Shown: positions 4,470 through 33,828 of the stretch, piece after piece
Position numbering within the stretch: position 1 is the stretch's first letter
Layout: each line of letters begins with the position of its first letter
Assembly: GCA_003561145.1 (NCBI GenBank)
Contig: PWXL01000228.1
Location: 1-35,227 of the forward strand
DNA length: 35,227 bases
DNA from: Candidatus Atribacteria bacterium
GTDB lineage: Bacteria; Atribacterota; Atribacteria; Atribacterales; Atribacteraceae
Reading direction: 5' to 3'
Notes under the pieces: generated by a model
Databases searched by the model: none
The model's input: the letters and a program-made list of their open reading frames with translations, nothing else
Told to the model about the DNA's origin: nothing
Made by a program: the position numbers and the translations under genes

Positions 4470-5792
4470 GTGAAACGCTTTATTGTTTTTCTGGTGGTTT
4501 CGTTATGTTGTATGTTGATCACTTCATTGGCATGGGCCGGTGAAGGGGAACGTTTTGATGGGGTGACACTCAGGGCTGCATTCATCGGTGGCGGTGACTA
4601 CGAAAGACTCTATGAAGAAGCAATACCCAAGTTTGAGGAAGCTACAGGGGCACGGGTAGATATCGTCTTTCGCGCTCACCATTTTGATTTGGATAAAAAA
4701 TTAAAGGTCGACTATGCCGCCGATGCGATAGACTACGATGTTTTTTCTTCACACACCAGTTTTTACTCCCAATATATCGATTTTACTGAACCACTTGATG
4801 AGTACTTTACCGAGGAGGAATTGGAAGATTTCCTTCCCATGGTATTGAATTTCTGCCGGCGGGATGGGTCTTTGTGGACTATTCCGCGACATGCTGATAT
4901 AAGCGCACTCCATTATCGCACTGATCTGTTCGAGGACCCTGAACTTCAGGAAGCCTTTGAAGCGGAATACGGTTATCCTCTGGCAGTGCCTGAGACATGG
5001 GACCAGTTTGAAGATATAGCTATTTTCTTCAGTGACCCACCCGTATTGTACGGAACACAGTTTGCGGGAACCGAGGAGCCTCTTTCAGGCAGGTTTAAGG
5101 AAATAATGACGGCGCATGGCGGCCAGATTATCGACGAGGATTACCGGCCGGCTTTCCATGGACCGGAGGGAATCAAGGCGGCGACCATGCTACGCAACCT
5201 CTACCAGGTCGGTGCCATGCCTCCCGGCATGGTCACGTTTTTGTGGGACGATGTCGCGGGTAACTGGGTAAGCGGTATCATAGCCATGTACACGGAATGG
5301 TACGGGTGGTACAGTTACTTCCAGGATCCCGAAGCGTCAGTGGTGGCGGGCAAGTTCGGCTTGGCACGCCAGCCCCAGGGAGATGCTGGTATTCACTCGG
5401 GCTGGGCTGGAGCACATACCTTTTCCGTTACCAGGACCAGCCAGAACAAAGAGGCAGCTGCCGCGTTCGTCAAGTATTTGACTGACTTTGAGTCCCAGTT
5501 GTTCGAAGCTGAAATCGGATATATTCCTATACGTGACTCAGTGTTTGAGACCATCATTGAAGCTGCGCAAGATGAGGATGACCCACTTGATCTTCACAGG
5601 CTTGAGCTCATGCAGTTACAGATGAGCAAAGATTTCACCCCCCCGCCTCTTCTACCGGAATGGTTTGAAATATCTACCGCTTTGTTTCCCCGTTTGCAAG
5701 CCATCATGCTGGGAGACATAGAGGTGGAGGCCGGCCTCAATGAAGCAGCTCGAGAGGTGGAGGAAATAATGAGTGATGCCGGGTATTACTAA
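4470..5792 (+). CDS. Extracellular solute-binding protein (ABC sugar-type), copy 2
   Basis: GTG 4470 with AAAGGAGG RBS; signal peptide; strongly similar to the 3105-4424 product along its whole length. Confidence 0.9.
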   Translation: MKRFIVFLVVSLCCMLITSLAWAGEGERFDGVTLRAAFIGGGDYERLYEEAIPKFEEATGARVDIVFRAHHFDLDKKLKVDYAADAIDYDVFSSHTSFYSQYIDFTEPLDEYFTEEELEDFLPMVLNFCRRDGSLWTIPRHADISALHYRTDLFEDPELQEAFEAEYGYPLAVPETWDQFEDIAIFFSDPPVLYGTQFAGTEEPLSGRFKEIMTAHGGQIIDEDYRPAFHGPEGIKAATMLRNLYQVGAMPPGMVTFLWDDVAGNWVSGIIAMYTEWYGWYSYFQDPEASVVAGKFGLARQPQGDAGIHSGWAGAHTFSVTRTSQNKEAAAAFVKYLTDFESQLFEAEIGYIPIRDSVFETIIEAAQDEDDPLDLHRLELMQLQMSKDFTPPPLLPEWFEISTALFPRLQAIMLGDIEVEAGLNEAAREVEEIMSDAGYY

Positions 5793-5821
5793 GCACGCGA
5801 TGTCATGAGCTTGATGTTGGT

Positions 5822-5867
5822 AGTACACGTGTGGGGTGGAAATATCCCCCCACACGTGTACTTTTTT
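5822..5867 (+). terminator. Rho-independent terminator after the second SBP gene
   Basis: Perfect 15-bp stem AGTACACGTGTGGGG / CCCCACACGTGTACT (5822-5836, 5848-5862) followed by a T-run. Confidence 0.9.
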
Positions 5868-5977
5868 CATATAGCATATCAATGGGAACACACTGCCTCC
5901 CTCTATGGAAGCACTTCTTGCTTTTTTACACGACTCACAAGGTACGACTCACTGCATGTGCAAAGGGGGTGATTTCT

Positions 5978-6385
5978 TTGGATTCAGTATCTTTTGGTCC
6001 AAGTCTGCGTGAAGCAACAAGGAGATTGGGCGAAGCCCTGGTAAATACAGAGGTGTATCGGGAATATGATAAAAGCCGCAAGGCACTCCTTTCAGATCCG
6101 GAAGCTATGGAGCTGTTGGGTGCTTTTGACACGGAACACCGTCGCTTGCAAGAAATTGCTTGTGAGCGAGAACTTTCAGAGGAAGACATAGATGATTTAA
6201 CTTATATGCAAAAGAACATGCTTTCTCATCCAGTAGTGAGGGAGCATTTTTCAAAACAACGTCATCTTATCGACATGATGCGCGAGGTGAATGCGCATAT
6301 CAGTGCTCTCTTGGGTGTCGATTTCGCCGGTTACGTTGCTTCCTCAAACGGTGAAGAGGGCGGGCAGGAAAGAGAATGGGAGTAA
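5978..6385 (+). CDS. YlbF/YmcA family protein
   Basis: TTG 5978 preceded by AAAGGGGGTG RBS; helical 'ALVNTEVYREYDKSRKALLSDPEAMELL...VREHFSKQRHLIDMMREVNAHIS' characteristic of YlbF-type proteins. Confidence 0.75.
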   Translation: MDSVSFGPSLREATRRLGEALVNTEVYREYDKSRKALLSDPEAMELLGAFDTEHRRLQEIACERELSEEDIDDLTYMQKNMLSHPVVREHFSKQRHLIDMMREVNAHISALLGVDFAGYVASSNGEEGGQEREWE

Positions 6386-18772: not shown

Positions 18773-19543
18773 ATGCGACTGAGCAGGATTATTTGTTTTG
18801 GTCTGGTGCTGGTAATTGTGTGGTGTGCAGGTGGCGGGTTGATACATGCCCGTGAGGCTCCTGATTTTACCCTGCCGGGTCTGAGCGGGGATTCCGTTTC
18901 ACTGTCTGATTGGACGGGTTACCCGCTCATCATTTCTTTTTTTACCACCTGGTGTCCATTTTGTACTGAGGAACTGACTCATTTGGAGGAATTGTACCAG
19001 GAACATGCTTCTGTAAGAGGTTTAAGGGTAGTGGCTGTGAATATTGCAGAGCCTGAGGAGAAAGTACAAGAGATGGTTTCCCGCCTTGGTCTTACATATA
19101 CCGTTGCCCTTGATGAGGGAAGCGGGGTAGCGAGCCGGTACAGAATTGTAGGTTTACCCACCTCGTATCTCGTGAATCCTGATGGGACGATTTCGGATAT
19201 GATTATTGGAGCGACGCGACCATCCGTATGGATGGAAAAATTGGAAAAAATATTTTGGTATGATGGTCTGAGAAAAGAGGATATAGAGGATGTAGCTTCT
19301 GCAACTTCGGAACTGGTGGTTCTTGATTTACGGGAGGAAAAGGGAAACCCCTTTCCCGGTCATCATGGTGTGCGTTACCTCCAACGTGCGAATACCGACA
19401 ATATAACAGAAGGCCTTCACCCCGATGAGGTACACCTGATCTATGCCGATTCAAATAAAAAAGGTGCTGCAGCATCTCGTAAGCTCGCTCAAGAAGGCTT
19501 TACGATGGTTTACTACCAACTCGCCGATGAGACGGAGCCCTGA
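18773..19543 (+). CDS. Secreted TlpA/redoxin-like thioredoxin fused to a degenerate rhodanese-like domain
   Basis: Signal peptide; 'APDFTLPGLSGDSVSLSDWTGYPLIISFFTTWCPFCTEELTHLEELY' (CPFC); C-terminal 'LVVLDLREEKGNPFPGHHGV...VHLIYADSNKKGAAASRKLAQEGFTMVYYQ'. Confidence 0.82.
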   Translation: MRLSRIICFGLVLVIVWCAGGGLIHAREAPDFTLPGLSGDSVSLSDWTGYPLIISFFTTWCPFCTEELTHLEELYQEHASVRGLRVVAVNIAEPEEKVQEMVSRLGLTYTVALDEGSGVASRYRIVGLPTSYLVNPDGTISDMIIGATRPSVWMEKLEKIFWYDGLRKEDIEDVASATSELVVLDLREEKGNPFPGHHGVRYLQRANTDNITEGLHPDEVHLIYADSNKKGAAASRKLAQEGFTMVYYQLADETEP

Positions 19544-20102
19544 CAGAGGGACCTTTCTTCTCATAATTTCCTCTATCATCGTTCTTTTCTGGACCGGATA
19601 TTATTTTTGGGGAAGCATTCCGCCATCTCCTCCCCTTGGGGAGGAAGGGGAGGAGATGGTGTATGAGCCGGCCCAACTTGAGGTAAACCTTGAGATGGCT
19701 GAAATAAGCGCCTTCAGTGGAGAAAGAAGGGAATGGGAAATCCAATCCCGTTCAATAATTAAACGGAATTCCATGTTGCACCTCCAGGACGTGGAGGGTG
19801 AGCTGTATCGTGACCGGCTTCCTCCATTGCGGTTACAGGCGGAAACAGGAAATGTCGATATCGACCTGGGTCGTATTGAACTTGCAACGATCCGATTGGA
19901 ATCGCAAGAAGAGGGGACAATCAGCGGAGAAAGCCTTACCTGGGCAAGCGACAGGGAAGTATTTCTGCTCAAGCATATTTCAATGGACACGGGGACGGCA
20001 CACATACGTGCGGGGTCTGGAACCATTTACCCTCACAGCGGCAAGGTTCGGCTGGAGGAAGAGGTTGAAGTACGCTTCAAGGTAGCTGGCTTTTCCCGGT
20101 AA
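19527..20102 (+). CDS. lptC: LPS export periplasmic/membrane-anchored LptC-like protein
   Basis: N-terminal TM followed by beta-rich 'YEPAQLEVNLEMAEISAFSGERREWEIQSRS...'; ATG 19527 overlaps the end of the upstream gene; directly upstream of lptA/lptB-like genes. Confidence 0.72.
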   Translation: MRRSPDRGTFLLIISSIIVLFWTGYYFWGSIPPSPPLGEEGEEMVYEPAQLEVNLEMAEISAFSGERREWEIQSRSIIKRNSMLHLQDVEGELYRDRLPPLRLQAETGNVDIDLGRIELATIRLESQEEGTISGESLTWASDREVFLLKHISMDTGTAHIRAGSGTIYPHSGKVRLEEEVEVRFKVAGFSR

Positions 20103-20137
20103 ACTTCTGAGGAGTAAACTTCTGAGGAGGAGAAAGC

Positions 20138-20839
20138 GTGAGAAAGAAAAAGGTATTTTCGGGTTTGCTTGTGCACATTGCAGCGGTGTTGCTCGCCCTT
20201 ATACCGGCATGGGCGGAAGCGGTTGAGGATGAAGTGGTTATTCGGACTACCATGGCCGAGTACGACGAGGAAACGGGTCGTATCTATGCCCAGGGGGAAT
20301 CCACCATCACCTGGCAGGGGGTGACCATGGTGTGTCCCTATTTGGAATTGGATACCCGCACCCAGGAAGCCACCAGTTCAGGAGAAATCATTATTACCTG
20401 GGAGGGAGCGAGAGTGGAAGCACAGGAAATGTTTTTTTCCGGGGAAAAAAACCAAGCCCGGCTTTCCCGGGTGAGGGGAGTGAGCGATGAATACGCTTTC
20501 TCCGCCGCAGAGGTTGATTTTGATTTTACCGGTGAACGCATGGTAATGAAGGGAGACCCACTGCTGGAGTTGAGTGAGTATACTGTACGCGCTCTTTCGA
20601 TAGAGCACTCTTTTCCCTCAAAAGCCTGGTTTGCTTCCTCGGTAACACTTACCCGGCCGGGGTGGGAAGGGCGTTCTTCACGAGCTATGTTCCGGGAGGG
20701 AGATGATGTGATTGAACTTTCAGGTGATGCACGGATACGCAGAGAGGACAGTACTCTCCGTGGAGAAAAGGTACTGGTGTTTTTAGAAACAGGTCGGGTC
20801 AGAGTTGAAGGTGATGTAGAGATCACCATAACCCAGTGA
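20138..20839 (+). CDS. lptA: LptA/OstA-like LPS transport protein
   Basis: Signal peptide; 'TMAEYDEETGRIYAQGESTITWQGVTMVCPYLELDTRTQEATSSGEIIITWEGARVEAQEMFF' OstA-type repeats. Confidence 0.8.
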   Translation: MRKKKVFSGLLVHIAAVLLALIPAWAEAVEDEVVIRTTMAEYDEETGRIYAQGESTITWQGVTMVCPYLELDTRTQEATSSGEIIITWEGARVEAQEMFFSGEKNQARLSRVRGVSDEYAFSAAEVDFDFTGERMVMKGDPLLELSEYTVRALSIEHSFPSKAWFASSVTLTRPGWEGRSSRAMFREGDDVIELSGDARIRREDSTLRGEKVLVFLETGRVRVEGDVEITITQ

Positions 20840-21591
20840 TGGTGGTGACGGGATTGAACAACGGTCATTGGACAACGCTGCGGGGAGAGACACTTTCCAA
20901 GGCATACAATCGTAAGCGTATTGTGAACGAGGTTGACGTTGAAGTAAGCCGAGGTGAAATCGTAGGTTTATTGGGACCTAACGGTGCAGGAAAGACCACA
21001 ACATTTTATTTAATGGTCGGCTTGGTCAAACCGGATGGCGGAACCGTCTATCTTGACGATTTGAAGCTTACCCCATATCCAATGTATTCACGTGCACGCA
21101 TGGGGGTTGGGTATCTTCCCCAGGAAGCATCGGTGTTCCGCCGTTTAAGCGTACAGGAAAATATAGACCTGGTGCTTGAAATGCAAGGTTTGCCACGACA
21201 AAAAGTGTTACAGAGGAGAAACGAGTTGTTGGAAGAGTTCGGCATTGCACCCCTCTCTCGTTCCCAGGCAAATCTTCTCTCGGGTGGTGAGCGCAGGCGG
21301 CTGGAGATTGCCAGAGCCATAGCAACTTCACCATCTTTCCTGCTTTTGGATGAACCATTCACCGGCATCGATCCCATTGCAGTCGAAGAGATTCAGAGAC
21401 TTATTCAGTTTTTGGCTTCCCGTAATATCGGAGTACTTATCACCGACCATGCAGTGAGAGAAACCCTGGCAATCACCGATCGCTCCTACATCATGTTTGA
21501 GGGAAGTATTTTAACTTCCGGAACATCGAAGGAAATTATAGAATCCGAATTGAGCCGGAAGCATTACCTGGGTGAACGGTTTAACCTGTGA
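20836..21591 (+). CDS. lptB: LPS export ABC transporter ATP-binding protein
   Basis: Walker A GPNGAGKTT, signature LSGGERRRLEIARA, Walker B FLLLDEPFTGIDP, 'ITDHAVRETL' characteristic of LptB. Confidence 0.95.
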   Translation: MMVVTGLNNGHWTTLRGETLSKAYNRKRIVNEVDVEVSRGEIVGLLGPNGAGKTTTFYLMVGLVKPDGGTVYLDDLKLTPYPMYSRARMGVGYLPQEASVFRRLSVQENIDLVLEMQGLPRQKVLQRRNELLEEFGIAPLSRSQANLLSGGERRRLEIARAIATSPSFLLLDEPFTGIDPIAVEEIQRLIQFLASRNIGVLITDHAVRETLAITDRSYIMFEGSILTSGTSKEIIESELSRKHYLGERFNL

Positions 21592-21630
21592 GATGAAAAT
21601 CTTTTTCATTACAAAAATCGACAGTCAGTT

Positions 21631-22719
21631 ATGACAATTCTGGATCGATATATCCTCAAACAAGCAGTGGTAAATTTTGCCTTCGGGGTTACTCTGTTTG
21701 TTACTATTCTGACAGCCGGTGACCTTCTTTTCCGACTGACCCGTTTGTGGTTGCAAGCGGGTTTAGCCTTCGGGACTGTTGTAAGAGTTTTTGTCTATAG
21801 TATTCCATCATTTCTTATTTATGTATTGCCCATGGCGGTGCTGCTGTCGGTCTTGCTCACTATGAGCCGACTGGCAGCGGGAAGTGAAGTGATCGCTTTC
21901 AGGTCGAGCGGAATAAGCCTGAAGAGAGGAGCACTTCCTTTTTTCCTGCTCGCGCTATGGGCATGCACAGGAACCGTCATTCTCAGTGAATGGGCCTTAC
22001 CGGCATCCGTTATACGTTTACAGCAGGTCGTGGGAGAGGAGAGCGCCCTACCGGATTGGCTGGTACAGGAAAACACATTTTTTACCGATACAAGCGTGCC
22101 CGGCACGGAACGGGTTTTTTATGTCAAACGTATCGACCGGGAAAAAGGTCAACTGCATGATGTTATTGTACAGGAGTTTGACCAGCGAGGCCTCACCCGT
22201 ATCATTAACGCGGAACAAGCCTTTATTGGGACCAACCAGTGGGTTTTCCTCAATGGCGTGTATTACGAAATGGACGAGGCAGGCAGGGTCGAACGGGTTG
22301 TCCGTTATCAGAGGGAAGTGATATCCACGCGGCAAACAATAGCGGAGATGGTCGAGGCAAGACGCAAGCCCCAGGAAATGAGTTTTGCGGAACTCTCCGC
22401 TTTCATTGACCGCGAAGGAAAACGGGGACAGCATACTGCTCCTTTGGAACTTATGCTCTGGCAGAAAACAGCTATACCATTCGCCTGTCTTGTGTTTGCC
22501 CTGTTAGGGGTTCCCCTGGGGGTTACATCGCCCCGGGCAGGCAAATCAGTAGGTATCGGTATAAGTATATTGATAGTTTTCGGTTATTACGTGTTTTTTT
22601 CTTTGACTGGAGCTCTTGCGGAGGGTGGGACAATAGGTCCGTTTTTTGGAGCATGGTTTGGGAACTTCATCGGGGTAGCTGCCGGTATGATATTGTTGTG
22701 GGTGAAAGATAGCCACTGA
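21631..22719 (+). CDS. lptG: LptF/LptG family (YjgP/YjgQ) permease
   Basis: 'TILDRYILKQAVVNFAFGVTLFVTILTAGDLLF' and 'TAIPFACLVFALLGVPLGVTSPRAGKSVGIGISILIVFGYYVFFSLTGALAEGGTIGPFFGAWFGN'. Confidence 0.9.
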   Translation: MTILDRYILKQAVVNFAFGVTLFVTILTAGDLLFRLTRLWLQAGLAFGTVVRVFVYSIPSFLIYVLPMAVLLSVLLTMSRLAAGSEVIAFRSSGISLKRGALPFFLLALWACTGTVILSEWALPASVIRLQQVVGEESALPDWLVQENTFFTDTSVPGTERVFYVKRIDREKGQLHDVIVQEFDQRGLTRIINAEQAFIGTNQWVFLNGVYYEMDEAGRVERVVRYQREVISTRQTIAEMVEARRKPQEMSFAELSAFIDREGKRGQHTAPLELMLWQKTAIPFACLVFALLGVPLGVTSPRAGKSVGIGISILIVFGYYVFFSLTGALAEGGTIGPFFGAWFGNFIGVAAGMILLWVKDSH

Positions 22720-26642: not shown

Positions 26643-26722
26643 GCGATCTTCTCCTCTTCTATACGATTACTATTGTTGTGCGATTATATTTACAAACAAA
26701 GATAATATCATACTGGGAAGAC

Positions 26723-26752
26723 TTGCAAAAGTGAAGAGGGCGGGACTATACT
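26723..26752 (+). promoter_or_regulatory. Sigma-70-type promoter for the PLP decarboxylase gene
   Basis: TTGCAA, 18-bp spacer, TATACT upstream of GTG 26816. Confidence 0.5.
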
Positions 26753-26815
26753 TGCATTCATGTACAACTTGACACAACTCTTTCGAGGTACGGGAAGGTA
26801 TCGGAGGGTAACCGG

Positions 26816-27970
26816 GTGAGTGAAATAGCGGTATGGAAGAACAAGAATGGCCGGGTACTGAGTGAAGAAACAATAAGTGATTTGGTTGGTAAGTATGATA
26901 CACCCCTGTTTGTCATTGTGCGTGATTCAATCATAAGAAATTTTCGCGCTTTTAAGAAATACTTTCCTGGAGTGGAGCCGTTTTATGCGGTAAAAGCTAA
27001 CCCCCACCCTTCCATTGTGCAGGTGCTGCACGAAGAAGGTTCTTCTTTTGATGTCGCCTCAAAAAATGAGATCGAGCTCGCTCTGCGTTGCGGCGTATCA
27101 CCCGGAAACCTCATATTCGCCAATACTATAAAACGGAAAAAAGGAATACGCTTTGCCAAGGAGATGGGCGTTTCTCTTTTTACTTTCGACAACGATAACG
27201 AAATTGGTAAAATGGCTTCCATTTTTCCCGGTGCTGAAGTGCTTTTGCGTCTCAAGACGGCTTCTGAAGGGAGCCGTATCAATCTCTCTTACAAGTTCGG
27301 GGCGGAGGAACAAGAAGCCATGGAATTGCTGAGAAAAGCCCGTGGAGCTGGTTTACGGCCTGTTGGCTTCAGTTTTCATGTAGGTTCGCCATGCCACAAT
27401 CCACATAACTATACCGTAACGCTCCAGGTTGTTGAAAATCTTGTATCTGAGGCCGCAGCTGAGGGATTTGAGCTCAAGGTGGTGGATATTGGCGGGGGAT
27501 TTCCCCTCCACCTCACCCGCGATGAAAATCCAGTGGAAAGCGTAGAAAGTATGGCCGAAGCAGTATTTCCCCACCTTTCTGAATGTATGAGAAGGGGAAT
27601 CCGGGTAATCGCCGAACCGGGGCGTTGTCTGGTTGGAAGCGCATGTGTGCTCATAACCAAGGTTATCGGAAAAGCTCGACGGTCAGGAAGGTACTGGTAC
27701 TACTTGGATGACGGTATATATGGAACCTTTTCAGCGGTTCCATTTGATAAAGCCACCTTTGATTTTCATACCTTCCACCGTGATGTTCCTCTGGAACCAT
27801 GCGTATTAGCAGGACCCACTTGCGATTCATTGGATGTGATCGCAGAAGATGTATTGATCCCCCCCCTGGAACTTGATGACAAAATTATAGTGGAAGACAT
27901 CGGGGCTTATTCCTGGGCTTCGGCAACTGCTTTCAATGGTTTCGAAAAACCAACGGTAGTATTGGTATGA
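26816..27970 (+). CDS. Fold type III PLP-dependent (ornithine/lysine-type) decarboxylase
   Basis: 'PFYAVKANPHPSIVQVLHEEGSSFDVASKNEIELAL', 'FHVGSPCHNP', 'VVDIGGGFP', 'AEPGRCLVG', 'GPTCDSLDVI'. Confidence 0.93.
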   Translation: MSEIAVWKNKNGRVLSEETISDLVGKYDTPLFVIVRDSIIRNFRAFKKYFPGVEPFYAVKANPHPSIVQVLHEEGSSFDVASKNEIELALRCGVSPGNLIFANTIKRKKGIRFAKEMGVSLFTFDNDNEIGKMASIFPGAEVLLRLKTASEGSRINLSYKFGAEEQEAMELLRKARGAGLRPVGFSFHVGSPCHNPHNYTVTLQVVENLVSEAAAEGFELKVVDIGGGFPLHLTRDENPVESVESMAEAVFPHLSECMRRGIRVIAEPGRCLVGSACVLITKVIGKARRSGRYWYYLDDGIYGTFSAVPFDKATFDFHTFHRDVPLEPCVLAGPTCDSLDVIAEDVLIPPLELDDKIIVEDIGAYSWASATAFNGFEKPTVVLV

Positions 27971-28006: not shown

Positions 28007-28957
28007 TTATGCGAAACGCAGGTTGAACTCGGGACAGCCTGGTAGGCAATACCCGCATGTGAGGCATGTATGCTGATCAACCTCGGGTTTTTTCTCACCC
28101 ATCCTGATTGCCCCTGAAGGGCAGGTTTCTACACAACGGTGGCAGCGCCTGCAATATCCGAGAACCACAACTTTTTTCTTTTTCCGGTCCAGGCATTGTG
28201 TGAGCATTTCTTGAGAAACAGGCAGCTCATTGAATATACTGACATGAACGTCCAGTTCTATTTCCCGTACTATTCCTACGGCGACCGAGTCCATTTCCCG
28301 CAAATTGCGGACAAATTCGATGGCATCAAGGAAGCGATCCAGGTAATGACCCCCGCCGAGTGCTTTCATGGCATATAAACCTTTGCCGGTTTGATGCACA
28401 GCTTGCACCGCTTTCAACATATCAGAGAGGGTTCCGCGTAAAATTCCCAAACCATCAAGATTGACAATAGGGAAAACGATATCAATAGCATCGTGGACTG
28501 CGGCTTCTTGTACCACATCCACTGCATGGGTGGATATTCCTATTGTTCGAATCAACCCTTTATCCCTGTAATCGAGCAGGCATTGTAATGCTCCTTCCCG
28601 TTCCTGGAAAACCTCCCGCTTTGCACGTGCAGCATGTAGATGAAAGATATCAATTGTTTCTCTGCCCAGAGCCTCCAGGGCGTCAAAAAGACTTTTTTCC
28701 ATGGCCGGGTATGTTTCTGCGGTAGACTTGGTAGCGATCACCACATCTTTTTCTTTTTCGAAGGCATTTTTCAAATACGGATACGTACCATACAGTTCCG
28801 CTGTATCGTAAAAGTTAATGCCGTTTTCAAGGGCTTTGTGCAGAATGCGAACACCTTCGTTGAGGGGGATACCGGCCTGCAGGGGACCCATTGGAAGTGT
28901 ACCGAAACAGAGCTGAGAAATGCGGATATCAAGTTTCCCCATTCGGTTCATTCTCAC
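28007..28957 (-). CDS. Aldo/keto reductase with C-terminal 4Fe-4S ferredoxin domain
   Basis: AKR motifs ('NFYDTAELYGTYPYLKNAF', 'ETIDIFHLHAA') plus CRRCHRCVETCP and CLTCGYCLPGCP. GTG 28957 with AAGGAAGG RBS chosen because a near-consensus promoter lies inside the longer track ORF. Confidence 0.9.
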   Translation of the reverse strand: MRMNRMGKLDIRISQLCFGTLPMGPLQAGIPLNEGVRILHKALENGINFYDTAELYGTYPYLKNAFEKEKDVVIATKSTAETYPAMEKSLFDALEALGRETIDIFHLHAARAKREVFQEREGALQCLLDYRDKGLIRTIGISTHAVDVVQEAAVHDAIDIVFPIVNLDGLGILRGTLSDMLKAVQAVHQTGKGLYAMKALGGGHYLDRFLDAIEFVRNLREMDSVAVGIVREIELDVHVSIFNELPVSQEMLTQCLDRKKKKVVVLGYCRRCHRCVETCPSGAIRMGEKKPEVDQHTCLTCGYCLPGCPEFNLRFA

Positions 28958-29050
28958 TGCGGCAACCTTCCTTTTTGTGTTGTAGGTGTTACTTTGAATT
29001 TCCAGAATCACGAGTGTGAAAAATATACCGGCCGGACATGGTGACTCTTT

Positions 29051-29080
29051 ATTATAATGAATGTACTTTTTGATTGTCAA
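29051..29080 (-). promoter_or_regulatory. Near-consensus sigma-70 promoter for the aldo/keto reductase
   Basis: Minus strand TTGACA (29080-29075), 18-bp spacer, TATAAT (29056-29051). Confidence 0.75.
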
Positions 29081-29126: not shown

Positions 29127-29195
29127 TGTACATTTTGTGATGAGTTGGTTTATTGGTATAATGAATGTGTGCAAGTACCAATCACGAAATGTACA
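29127..29195. repeat. 15-bp inverted repeat flanking a TATAAT promoter (candidate operator pair)
   Basis: TGTACATTTTGTGAT (29127-29141) versus ATCACGAAATGTACA (29181-29195), 14/15 complementary; TATAAT at 29157-29162 between them. Confidence 0.8.
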
Positions 29196-29210: not shown

Positions 29211-29438
29211 GTGGTACAGGCGTACATATTGATCCGTACAGAGAGCGGCAAAGCTCTCCACGTTAAAAAAGAACTTGCGTTTATCCCGGGAATGAAGCAA
29301 GTAGACCGGGTAATGGGACCTTTTGATATCATTTCCCTGGTGGAAGCCGAAAATACCAAGCAAATAGGAGATAACATACTGAGGGATATCCAATCAGTTG
29401 ATGGAATCCGTAGGACTCTCACCTGCCCCGTTATTTAA
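29211..29438 (+). CDS. Stand-alone Lrp/AsnC ligand-binding (RAM) domain protein
   Basis: 'VVQAYILIRTESGKALHVKKELAFIPGMKQVDRVMGPFDIISLVEAENTKQIGDNILRDIQSVDGIRRTLTCPVI', no HTH; GTG 29211 with GGGGAG RBS. Confidence 0.85.
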   Translation: MVQAYILIRTESGKALHVKKELAFIPGMKQVDRVMGPFDIISLVEAENTKQIGDNILRDIQSVDGIRRTLTCPVI

Positions 29439-29462
29439 GAGCTGGAACCGCCTGGAGTGAAC

Positions 29463-30104
29463 ATGGAGCCGGAAGAGAAAATTACCAGCAAAGAACAACA
29501 GATTCTGTTCTTCATAGAAGAATACTTTCGCAAACGGGGATATCCTCCAACTGTGAGGGAGATCGGCAGGGCCGTTGGATTACAATCATCATGCAGTGTG
29601 CATTATTACCTGAAAAAGTTGGAAAAGAATGGTTTTCTGCGGAGAGACCCCTCGAAACCCCGTGCCATAGAAGTTCTTCCTCATCTTTTAGGAATAAACC
29701 CGGACAGGGACTCCGTAAACATCCCGTTACTGAATTCCCTGTATCTGGAGGAGGACAAGGTCTGCCTCGATGATATCCAAATGTTCGTTCCCTTTCCCAG
29801 GCATCTTTTAGGGAAAGGTTGTTTTTTCGCTCTGTGCTGGCCAGGCCCGGCATACATGCGACCATTTGTGGCAGAAGGGGATTGGATTGTAGCCCGGACT
29901 AACGAGGAAGATACAGTATTGAATGACGGAGAACTGGTTATAGCGATTGGAGGAGAAGGTGTTCTGATTGGTGAACTCACTCAAGGGGGAGAAGCGATTG
30001 AGCTTTGTCCCTTGGAGAAAGAGGCCCGGAAAATTCGTAAACGACGGTTCCGGATAGCGGGAAAAGTGGAAGGTGTCTGGTCAGGCTTAAAAAATCGGAG
30101 GTGA
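29463..30104 (+). CDS. LexA-like regulator with degenerate S24 autoprotease domain
   Basis: LexA winged HTH 'ITSKEQQILFFIEEYFRKRGYPPTVREIGRAVGLQSSCSVHYYLKKLEKNGFLRRDPSKPRAIEV' and a LexA-like C-terminal domain without recognisable catalytic residues. The track start is 29457. Confidence 0.85.
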   Translation: MEPEEKITSKEQQILFFIEEYFRKRGYPPTVREIGRAVGLQSSCSVHYYLKKLEKNGFLRRDPSKPRAIEVLPHLLGINPDRDSVNIPLLNSLYLEEDKVCLDDIQMFVPFPRHLLGKGCFFALCWPGPAYMRPFVAEGDWIVARTNEEDTVLNDGELVIAIGGEGVLIGELTQGGEAIELCPLEKEARKIRKRRFRIAGKVEGVWSGLKNRR

Positions 30105-30108
30105 AAAA

Positions 30109-30525
30109 GTGGTTGTTACAAGGGAAATAAAAGTTTCTACCAAGGGTCACACAGACATCGTCAATATCACTTCGCAGCTCAAAGAGGCGGTGGGCTCTTC
30201 ACGCCTTACCTCAGGCATAGTGTGTTTATTTGTCCCTGGGACCACGGCAACACTCACGACAATGGAATATGAGCCGGGCTTGATCAAGGATGTACGCTTG
30301 TACTGGGAGAAAGTAGCCGGTTCACGTGATGAATACGAACACAATGTACGTTGGGGTGACGGTAACGGGTATGCCCATGTGCGTTCAGCTTTCAGCGGAC
30401 CCTCACTGGTTATTCCTATTATTGAAGGGAAGCCTGTTTTAGGAACTTGGCAGGAAGTCGTCTTCATTGACTTTGATAACCGGGCAAGGTCCCGCACCAT
30501 ATTCGTTCAAATTGTGGGGGAATAG
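30109..30525 (+). CDS. YjbQ family (UPF0047) protein
   Basis: 'GIVCLFVPGTTATLTTMEYEPGLIKD...GNGYAHVRSAFSGPSLVIPIIEGKPVLGTWQEVVFIDFDNRARSR'; GTG start 5 bp after the upstream stop. Confidence 0.9.
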   Translation: MVVTREIKVSTKGHTDIVNITSQLKEAVGSSRLTSGIVCLFVPGTTATLTTMEYEPGLIKDVRLYWEKVAGSRDEYEHNVRWGDGNGYAHVRSAFSGPSLVIPIIEGKPVLGTWQEVVFIDFDNRARSRTIFVQIVGE

Positions 30526-30529
30526 TATT

Positions 30530-31675
30530 ATGGACGCGTCTTTCGTTTTCCGCTTACCCAAGGAGATATTTTATGGTTCCGGTGAGTTGAGGGAAACAGG
30601 AAAGATCGTTAAAAAATTGGGGAAAAGAGCGCTTGTAGTCTGTGGGAAAAGTGCAGCCCGCAGCACAGGTTTTCTCTCACTGATGGAAGATTCCCTTGGA
30701 AGTGCCCGCATACCTATGAAAATATTTGAAGGAGTGGAACCTGAGCCCTCCCTGGAAACAGTAGACCGTGGAATCAGTGAGGGGATGCAGTGGGGTTGTG
30801 ATATGGTTATTTCCCTCGGCGGTGGGAGTGTGCTGGACTGTGGGAAAGCGATAGCAGGCGTACTTGGAAACGGCGAAAGTGTGATCCCCTTTTTCAAGGG
30901 AGAACCCTTACTGAAACCAGGCTGCCCTTGGATTGCTGTTCCCACTACTGCCGGTACAGGGTCGGAAATGACCAATAATGCGGTTCTTACAGACCGCGCG
31001 AGAAAATTAAAGCAAAGCCTGCGCAGTCCTTACCTGATGGCTAGAGTTGTGGTTACTGATCCTCTCCTCACCCATTCAATGAACCCCTACCTCACGGCAA
31101 CATCAGGTGTTGATGCGATAGTACAAGCCATAGAGGCCTATACAAGCCCCCGCAGTAATCCAGTGAGTGATGTATTGGGATTGGAAGCTGTTGCCCTCCT
31201 GTGGTCTCATTTACCTGAGGCGGTCCGTAGGGGAGATGACCATGTTGCTCGTGAAAAGGTGGCACGGGGAAGTATGTTGAGTGCGATGTCTTTTGCAAAT
31301 TCTTCTTCAGGTCCGGCACATGGGTTGTCCCATATCGTTGGTCCTGAGTTTGGAGTGGTTCATGGAGAAGCCTGTGGGGTTTTCCTTCCTCATGTTATTC
31401 GGTTTAATGCAGAGATCTTGAGAGAGCGATATGCACGCTTAGCGGATACCTTGGGAATACCCTCTCATACTTCAGATCGTGCTGTAGGTGTGGCGGATGC
31501 CCTTGAACAGCTGATGAAGGAGATAGGCTTACGAACCCGCCTGAGCGATTGGGGTATTACGGAGCGGATGCTCGATGGTGTGGTACGAGAAGAAGCGGTG
31601 AGCCGCAATATTCGTGAGAACCCTCGTCCTATAGATAAAAAAGGAATTGAAGAGTTATTACGCCGGACATTGTAA
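30530..31675 (+). CDS. Iron-containing alcohol dehydrogenase
   Basis: 'FRLPKEIFYGSGEL', 'VISLGGGSVLDCGKAIA', 'AVPTTAGTGSEMTNNAVLTD', 'GPAHGLSHIVGPEFGVVHGEACGVFLPHVIRFN'; ATG 30530 preferred. Confidence 0.95.
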   Translation: MDASFVFRLPKEIFYGSGELRETGKIVKKLGKRALVVCGKSAARSTGFLSLMEDSLGSARIPMKIFEGVEPEPSLETVDRGISEGMQWGCDMVISLGGGSVLDCGKAIAGVLGNGESVIPFFKGEPLLKPGCPWIAVPTTAGTGSEMTNNAVLTDRARKLKQSLRSPYLMARVVVTDPLLTHSMNPYLTATSGVDAIVQAIEAYTSPRSNPVSDVLGLEAVALLWSHLPEAVRRGDDHVAREKVARGSMLSAMSFANSSSGPAHGLSHIVGPEFGVVHGEACGVFLPHVIRFNAEILRERYARLADTLGIPSHTSDRAVGVADALEQLMKEIGLRTRLSDWGITERMLDGVVREEAVSRNIRENPRPIDKKGIEELLRRTL

Positions 31676-31707: not shown

Positions 31708-32043
31708 ATGGAACTGGTGAGAGAGGAAGATTTGTCTTTCCGCCATGGGGATTGGGGTATTAAATATCTTTTCCGTGGTCCACGGCTTGATTGGGGAGTA
31801 GTGCTTCTGAGGCCGGGGGAAAGAATGGGTGCACATTATCACCGGGAAGTCGAAGAAACCTTTTTCATACTTGAGGGGACGGGTGAGCTTATAGTAGACG
31901 GGCAAGCCATACCCGTAGATGAAGGAACCGCATGCCGGCTGGAACCGGGGGAACGACACGATCTGGCCGCGTCTTCTCACCATGCATTACGCGGGATATT
32001 CATCAAAACACCCTATCTTCCTGACGATAAGCAAAACTGTTAA
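31708..32043 (+). CDS. Cupin domain protein
   Basis: 'GERMGAHYHREVEETFFILEGTGELIVDGQAIPVDEGTACRLEPGERHDLAASSHHALRGIFIKTP'; GGGGAGGAA RBS. Confidence 0.93.
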   Translation: MELVREEDLSFRHGDWGIKYLFRGPRLDWGVVLLRPGERMGAHYHREVEETFFILEGTGELIVDGQAIPVDEGTACRLEPGERHDLAASSHHALRGIFIKTPYLPDDKQNC

Positions 32044-32277: not shown

Positions 32278-32802
32278 ATGATAGAAGCCATACTCGATGT
32301 TGCCCGTTTCATGGCTATTTCTGCCCGAACGGCACCAAAATCAAAAGGAGAAGACTTTCTTTCCATTGAAATTCTTGAAGGTGAGCAGGTAATATTGGTT
32401 GGGGAAGCCATGGTACAGTGGGGGGAAGAGAATGGTATCGCAGGTTTTGTGCGTGACGGAAGAAATGTTCTTGCTTCAAGTGCAGTGGTTTTAGTTGGTC
32501 TCAAGGATGCAAAACCTTTGGGACTTGATTGTGGAGCATGCGGGTATGACCGGTGTACAGACCTTTTGCCGGCGGAAAAGAGTCAATTCAGAGGACCGCA
32601 GTGTGCTTTCCGCCTCGTGGATTTGGGAATTGCCCTTGGGTCAGCTGTAAAGACCGCTTCACTTTTAAACGTTGATAATCGAATTATGTACCGTATTGGA
32701 ATGATGGCGAGAAAGAAGGGCATAAGCAATGACGATGTGGTCCTGGGTATTCCGCTTTCCGCACTGGGAAAAAATGTGTATTTTGATCGGAAGGAGCAGT
32801 GA
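32278..32802 (+). CDS. DUF2148-like (ferredoxin-domain) protein
   Basis: 'AARTAPKSKGEDFLSIEIL'-type N-terminus (AISARTAPKSKGED), 'LGLDCGACGYDRC'-type Cys motif, 'FRGPQCAFRLVDLGIALGSAVKTASLLNVDNRIMYRIG'; ATG 32278 with GGGAGG RBS. Confidence 0.85.
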   Translation: MIEAILDVARFMAISARTAPKSKGEDFLSIEILEGEQVILVGEAMVQWGEENGIAGFVRDGRNVLASSAVVLVGLKDAKPLGLDCGACGYDRCTDLLPAEKSQFRGPQCAFRLVDLGIALGSAVKTASLLNVDNRIMYRIGMMARKKGISNDDVVLGIPLSALGKNVYFDRKEQ

Positions 32803-32811
32803 GGTGAGGCC

Positions 32812-33828
32812 ATGGAGGGCTTGAGAGTTCAAGATATCATCGGGTTGATTCTGGCCATTCTTATCGTGGCCATTCTGATCAGTATCATCCTTATTCTTCG
32901 AGAAAGTTCCCGGGAGAAAAGAATGTGGCAGCAGGATGATTATGATGAATACGAGGAAACAAAAAAACCTCGCTCCAGGATGAACCTGGAGCGAAAACAA
33001 GGAGTAAAATTCTCCCGTCCCTCCGCTTCCGTACCATCGCAAAAAAAGGAAGAAACCCCTACCTCCGAGCTTGAGACAAAGCGTAAATGGGGGCGAATTC
33101 CACGGGAACGCGATTTTCCTCGTGAGCAGGAGCAAGCACGGGAGGGAGAAAAAACAGTACAGGAACGCAGACCGTTGTGGAAGCGTACGACGGGGGATGA
33201 GGAAGTGGTGATTGAGAAAGTCACTCCACGACCATCACATCCCACTCAACCGCCCGAAAAAGAAGAAGCGGTCTCTCCACCTCCTCCTCAATGGGAAAAA
33301 GAGGAAGAGAAAGAGGTACCATCCCGTGTTCCTCTGGAGGAAGAAAGACCTCACCGCGAGCCCCGACAGGCTGTCTTGGAAAGAGCCTTGAAGAAATTGC
33401 AGGAAACGGGTATTGAGATTCGGGCATTGAAGGTCGGCCTGGGAGAGGAGAATATTGATTTTTCTCCCTTGTTGTGGGAAGCAAGGGAAGAAGTAAAAGC
33501 AGGAAAAAACATCGGTGACATAGTGATCCATACGGTTTTTAAAAATATTCCTGGACGGTCCGGCGAAGATGTTGTGGAATTGTACCGCTCCGGAGATGTG
33601 TCGGTAGTGGATAGGTTGGAAGCCAAGGTGCGCACAGCTGAGGGAAGAGATTACCTGGTAGCCTCTTTGTATCTTTCACATTTTCGCATTCCTGAGCTGA
33701 GTCGTTTGACCAGGAACGGTACCCTTACCGAAGAAGAACTGGAAGTTCTTGCTGCTTTGAAATTTGTTGACCGGAGTACAAAAAAGGATTTTGCCCGGGC
33801 CGTGTATTCACGGATCATGAATGAATGA
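32812..33828 (+). CDS. Membrane-anchored protein: TM helix, Pro/Glu/Lys-rich linker, C-terminal globular domain of unknown function
   Basis: TM 'IIGLILAILIVAILISIILIL', long charged low-complexity linker, structured C-terminal part (about residues 190-338). Confidence 0.75.
   Translation: MEGLRVQDIIGLILAILIVAILISIILILRESSREKRMWQQDDYDEYEETKKPRSRMNLERKQGVKFSRPSASVPSQKKEETPTSELETKRKWGRIPRERDFPREQEQAREGEKTVQERRPLWKRTTGDEEVVIEKVTPRPSHPTQPPEKEEAVSPPPPQWEKEEEKEVPSRVPLEEERPHREPRQAVLERALKKLQETGIEIRALKVGLGEENIDFSPLLWEAREEVKAGKNIGDIVIHTVFKNIPGRSGEDVVELYRSGDVSVVDRLEAKVRTAEGRDYLVASLYLSHFRIPELSRLTRNGTLTEEELEVLAALKFVDRSTKKDFARAVYSRIMNE

Follow-up and report, generated by a model that had tools for sequence, protein, structure and literature searches.

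The window, a stretch of 35,227 nucleotides, comes from an Atribacterota MAG that is 78% complete, and it encodes a LexA homologue (dLexA) that has lost the residues of self-cleavage. dLexA is a separate, order-wide instance of the already known non-cleavable LexA, with all three elements (Ala-Gly site, Ser and Lys) lost and a fixed operon context. Since its catalytic parts are lost and its gene stands in a metabolic operon, dLexA probably now serves a function outside the SOS response to DNA damage. The reading that we favor, with moderate confidence, is that of a LexA-type repressor that acts on nearby metabolic genes as a dimer, neither cleaves itself nor responds to RecA, and keeps its S24 domain for dimerisation. 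The gene and its key positions are:

29463–30104, + strand: dLexA, LexA homologue of 213 aa, winged helix-turn-helix (wHTH) plus catalytically dead S24 domain
29475–29678, + strand: LexA-type winged HTH, residues 5–72 (PF01726, alignment, dN/dS)
29745–29750, + strand: position of the scissile Ala84-Gly85, here Leu95-Glu96 (residue mapping)
29850–29852, + strand: position of the catalytic Ser119 (nucleophile), here Ala130 (residue mapping)
29970–29972, + strand: position of the catalytic Lys156 (general base), here Gly170 (residue mapping)

The reading frame and coordinates of dLexA were verified. The frame starts with ATG at 29463, and an in-frame GTG at 29457 is a possible alternative start. 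The N-terminal domain matches LexA_DNA_bind (PF01726; E 5.7e-20, 71.3 bits against a Pfam cut-off of 23.7), in agreement with an earlier sequence-only reading that had called this winged HTH LexA-like. The Pfam Peptidase_S24 match (18.6 bits) lies under its cut-off of 23.3, and the NCBIfam lexA model TIGR00498 is barely passed (111.6 bits, cut-off 110.95), with several orthologues scoring under it. The wHTH, the TIGR00498 score and the predicted S24 fold together place dLexA in the LexA sequence family. The closest solved structure is Thermotoga maritima LexA (3k2z, residues 7–207), and the nearest named record is from Ca. Atribacteria CSSed162cmB_266, with 79% protein identity. An assignment to the XRE-S24 repressors was rejected, the CI-type HTH_3 being absent from the Pfam matches of dLexA.

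Residues were mapped onto E. coli LexA and 44 further LexAs (comparison set n = 45). The E. coli sequence aligned in full to relatives of the PDB LexA chains. A84 maps to Leu95 (29745–29747) and G85 to Glu96 (29748–29750). The sequence-only reading had reported the loss of the Ala-Gly site, the change of Ser119 to Ala and that of Lys156 to Gly, and the mapping returned the same codons. A84, G85, S119 and K156 are intact in 45/45 comparison LexAs. Among the 17 intact orthologues of the dLexA clade, A84 is found in 0/17, G85 in 2/17, S119 in 0/17 and K156 in 1/17, a clade-wide loss that goes far beyond chance. In genus g10 the cleavage-loop region is deleted altogether. An alternative Ser/Lys pair was rejected, as none is conserved in the clade: the 17-orthologue alignment contains no conserved Ser, Thr or Cys in the C-terminal domain that could act as another nucleophile. 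Conserved Lys in this domain are limited to K201 and K208, near the C-terminal GKVxGxW strand. Both this result and the conservation of the loss across orthologues favor the earlier proposal of a regulator outside RecA-stimulated self-cleavage, a reaction that appears chemically implausible without the Ser-Lys dyad. dLexA is not to be filed as an SOS LexA, because the Ala-Gly bond and the Ser119-Lys156 dyad were tested for and are absent.

A total of 50 genomes of the phylum Atribacterota were examined, including 25 from the window's order of subsurface bacteria; the order name Atribacterales is inferred from the phylum, its two-class structure and the NCBI taxonomy. Orthologues of dLexA are present in 18/25 order genomes, with intact ORFs in 17 genomes from four families and one frameshifted copy. 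The 17 intact orthologues form one clade with 100/100 support. None of the 25 order genomes, one of which is closed (2.27 Mb), was found to contain a canonical LexA, and this again favors the sequence-only reading. dLexA is the only LexA-type protein encoded in the window's genome. In seven genomes of the window's own family (genera g3 and g4), no protein with a LexA DNA-binding domain scores above the family cut-off. In families f5 and f7 (JS1-type, the other class), canonical VAAG, GDSM and VKR motifs are present wherever LexA was read. Sistership of the dLexA clade with JS1-type canonical LexA was not rejected (AU p 0.54), and the tree is compatible with either a Firmicute-type LexA or the phylum's own LexA as the origin of dLexA. 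The frameshifted copy (L041, G017:C180) is normal apart from one frameshift, in the part encoding the C-terminal domain, which is either a mutation or an assembly error.

The AlphaFold2 model of dLexA is of moderate confidence (pLDDT 74.6, pTM 0.55), and its best matches are LexA structures, including those of T. maritima and E. coli. The C-terminal part of the model matches M. tuberculosis LexA and UmuD with TM up to 0.70; the S24 fold is predicted to persist with its catalytic chemistry lost. The C-terminal domain is also the fastest-evolving and least conserved part of the protein, with few invariant residues, and its only widely conserved polar residues are a structural Asp and the two C-terminal Lys. 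The suggestion of the sequence-only reading that a repurposed S24 domain senses a ligand is not supported, given this rapid evolution, the few conserved polar residues and the missing cleavage loop in g10. The C-terminal domain of LexA dimerises the repressor, and this role is the simplest reason for the retention of the S24 domain, simpler than ligand sensing. If a ligand is sensed, the RAM-domain protein encoded next to dLexA is a better candidate.

The genes around dLexA are:

26816–27970, + strand: PLP-dependent Orn/DAP/Arg-type decarboxylase, at the head of the ancestral cluster (synteny; conserved promoter upstream)
29211–29438, + strand: stand-alone RAM (AsnC/Lrp ligand-binding) protein (PF01037 E 1e-9, synteny)
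30109–30525, + strand: YjbQ/UPF0047 protein (PF01894 E 1.7e-31, synteny)
30530–31675, + strand: iron-containing alcohol dehydrogenase, Fe-ADH (Pfam, synteny)
31708–32043, + strand: cupin protein (Pfam, synteny)
32278–32802, + strand: DUF2148 ferredoxin-domain protein (Pfam, synteny)
32812–33828, + strand: conserved protein with an N-terminal hydrophobic segment and no Pfam match (ORF list, synteny)

The conserved operon reads [decarboxylase-SufC-SufBD]-RAM-dLexA-YjbQ-FeADH-cupin-[radical SAM]-DUF2148. Every dLexA-bearing member of the order has RAM, Fe-ADH and cupin genes as neighbors of dLexA, with DUF2148 where the contig reaches; YjbQ usually follows dLexA directly and was not found there in g10. 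In families f2–f4, the end of SufBD lies immediately 5' of RAM. Locus L044 shows the order decarboxylase, SufC, SufBD, RAM, dLexA, YjbQ, Fe-ADH, cupin, radical SAM and DUF2148, and adjacent genes overlap by 4 nt or are separated by short gaps, as is typical of an operon; its SufC, SufBD and radical SAM genes were named from sequence, and SufBD was confirmed by PF01458. The radical-SAM gene is absent from the corresponding place in the window. Three canonical-LexA loci of the other class contain none of the neighbors of dLexA. At another locus (L131, G003:C58), the start of a SufC-like frame upstream of RAM is apparently fused to the end of a SufBD-like frame, which looks like an internal deletion of most of sufC-sufBD; an assembly error is also possible.

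In the favored reading, a LexA ancestor in the order would have lost autoproteolysis and been retained as a dimeric winged-helix repressor that RecA cannot switch off. Its wHTH would still recognize a single, conserved type of operator, with the inactive S24 domain retained to hold the dimer together. We infer that dLexA binds DNA, dimerises and controls its own operon; the SUF/RAM/YjbQ/Fe-ADH/cupin/DUF2148 genes would most likely be its targets, perhaps with others. What sets its activity may be the amount of dLexA, a modification of the protein, or a signal passed on by a partner, for which the neighboring RAM protein is one candidate. The last of these can be extended to a two-protein metabolic switch, in which the RAM protein, as the sensor of an amino acid or a comparable ligand, acts on dLexA and takes the place of RecA as the effector. 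This is conceivable but doubtful. A RAM ORF directly precedes dLexA in all dLexA-bearing order members, RAM (PF01037) is a known ligand-binding domain, and dLexA has lost its own input module. However, seven genomes without dLexA retain RAM, Fe-ADH and DUF2148, without YjbQ there, suggesting that the operon works without dLexA and that RAM has another role.

Two elements ahead of RAM-dLexA were noted:

29135–29162, + strand: putative sigma-70-like promoter TTGTGA-16-TATAAT
29127–29195, no strand: inverted repeat TGTACATTTTGTGAT / ATCACGAAATGTACA flanking this promoter, a weak operator candidate

The inverted repeat (29127/29181) is not conserved even in the sister species and is therefore only a weak candidate. 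Footprinting of the operon promoter revealed no conserved palindrome upstream of the decarboxylase gene, where dyads common to genera exceed shuffled sequences marginally at best. The one conserved element seen ahead of the decarboxylase gene, within 26643–26815 in the window and likewise in relatives, is a sigma-70-like promoter (TTGCAAA/TTGAAAA ... TATACT), common to genomes with and without dLexA. On the minus strand, at 29051–29080, a perfect sigma-70 consensus (TTGACA-18-TATAAT) lies upstream of a divergent aldo/keto reductase-ferredoxin gene (28007–29080).

dLexA might also still be an SOS repressor, one that is eliminated not by cutting itself but through titration or a different protease (Clp/Lon type). 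It is the sole remaining LexA-type protein, recA was found in 17/17 order genomes searched, and no other S24 proteins were found in G011, G012 (closed) and G019. Several observations make this quite improbable. The operon neighbors are metabolic and not DNA repair genes. The recognition helix of dLexA, SSC[ST]VHY[HY], is unlike the SSATAFKY or SSATAHKY of JS1-type canonical LexA. In most genomes another ORF closely precedes recA, which made the comparison of recA upstream regions uninformative, and neither a promoter nor a LexA box was evident there. Many order members also encode an XRE-S24 protein of ~215 aa with IPCG, GDSM and IK, by its motifs probably a cleavable repressor of another build.

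SOS control has passed to XRE-S24 repressors in Bacteroidetes (PMC8565304), and together with HdiR and UmuDAb this precedent indicates that such control can move to S24 proteins with other DNA-binding domains. These repressors combine a CI-type HTH with an intact protease, whereas dLexA combines a LexA wHTH with a dead one. An XRE-S24 protein as the universal replacement SOS repressor was rejected for Atribacterales, with none found in G011, G012 and G019 and only one copy beside umuC among the regions examined. Since XRE-S24 is not universal in the order, a handover of SOS control there is at most a lead. The broader scenario that the whole order dismantled LexA autoproteolysis, turned dLexA into a metabolic switch with its off-signal from the RAM protein, and abandoned RecA/SOS control or handed it to XRE-S24 proteins is, taken as a whole, rather unlikely. 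In G005, a gene for an intact XRE-S24 repressor is divergent from a umuD-like/umuC pair (L186, G005:C1:1800000-1808500, 4513–6127). The UmuD-like protein of 117 aa before umuC has GEDSK for GDSM and no matching Lys, which marks it as a degenerate UmuD.

In the recognition helix SSCSVHYYL, residues S42, S43, C44, V46 and Y48 do not vary across the 17 orthologues, and H47 hardly does. The invariance of Cys44 (29592–29594; 17/17), and the presence of SufC-SufBD in the dLexA operon of families f2–f4, would suit an Fe-S or redox-responsive regulator of the SUF genes acting through this residue. We regard this as very improbable, however: Cys44 is the only invariant Cys, the canonical LexA L117 also has Cys at the same place, and in family f1 the SUF genes no longer lie at the locus (G001 and G005 have them at another place), while two genera still have dLexA there. 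A pseudogene or decaying remnant, to which the G017 frameshift and the loss of the gene from seven genomes might point, is hardly credible and was rejected on the dN/dS values (about 0.05–0.14 for the whole gene where computable, some pairs being saturated at synonymous sites) and the breadth of intact copies over four families. By part, pairwise dN/dS is ≤0.08 for the HTH and mostly 0.06–0.20 for the C-terminal domain, clearly indicating purifying selection that is strong on the HTH and weaker but real on the C-terminal domain. The lesion in dLexA is not private to the window, and the gene is not decaying.

The LexA of Synechocystis sp. PCC 6803 is a natural non-cleavable LexA, with Gly-Gly in place of Ala-Gly and Asp in place of Ser119 (PMC3091678); it has a metabolic/stress role, with phosphorylation control suggested (PMC7567884). 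Like dLexA, it retains the full-length LexA fold and has lost the Ala-Gly site and the catalytic Ser, and by analogy dLexA probably works in a similar manner. The Synechocystis protein is a metabolic/stress repressor with no evident SOS role; for dLexA, the operon context suggests a metabolic role. The two come from unrelated phyla, and Synechocystis is one species departing from a mostly cleavable phylum, whereas here A-G, Ser and Lys are missing throughout an order. The dLexA gene further differs in lying in a SUF/RAM operon that is conserved, and its order has no cleavable LexA left. With canonical LexA (E. coli, T. maritima 3k2z and JS1-type), dLexA shares the wHTH and S24 domains, the equivalent of Asp129 and the GKVxGx C-terminal strand, but it lacks the scissile bond and the Ser-Lys dyad. 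Phage LexA-wHTH proteins (IMG/VR) likewise have a LexA-type DNA-binding domain without self-cleavage, but they are mostly HTH-only and on viral contigs, whereas dLexA is chromosomal, syntenic and full length. A phage origin was rejected, as the nearest viral matches are mostly HTH-only or canonical and the full-length ones only ~25% identical. One phage or prophage LexA-wHTH protein of 144 aa (L216, IMGVR_UViG_2883367716_000004) has a shortened S24-like domain without cleavage site, Ser and Lys, and is perhaps an independent non-cleavable case.

A literature search retrieved no paper linking LexA or the SOS response with Atribacterota. LexA is taken as the marker of the SOS response, and annotation based on TIGR00498 would label dLexA 'transcriptional repressor LexA'; an SOS response deduced from that label is very likely wrong for this order. 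The phylum offers a natural series for the passage from a proteolytic switch to another kind of regulator, with LexA canonical in the other class, dead in most of the order and absent from a few genera. Another question it poses, one that can be tested, is how bacteria that have RecA and no cleavable LexA respond to DNA damage. Elsewhere in the window, at 19443–22719, ORFs read by eye only resemble an Lpt-type export set (periplasmic proteins, ABC ATPase and permease), which, if right, would indicate a diderm cell.
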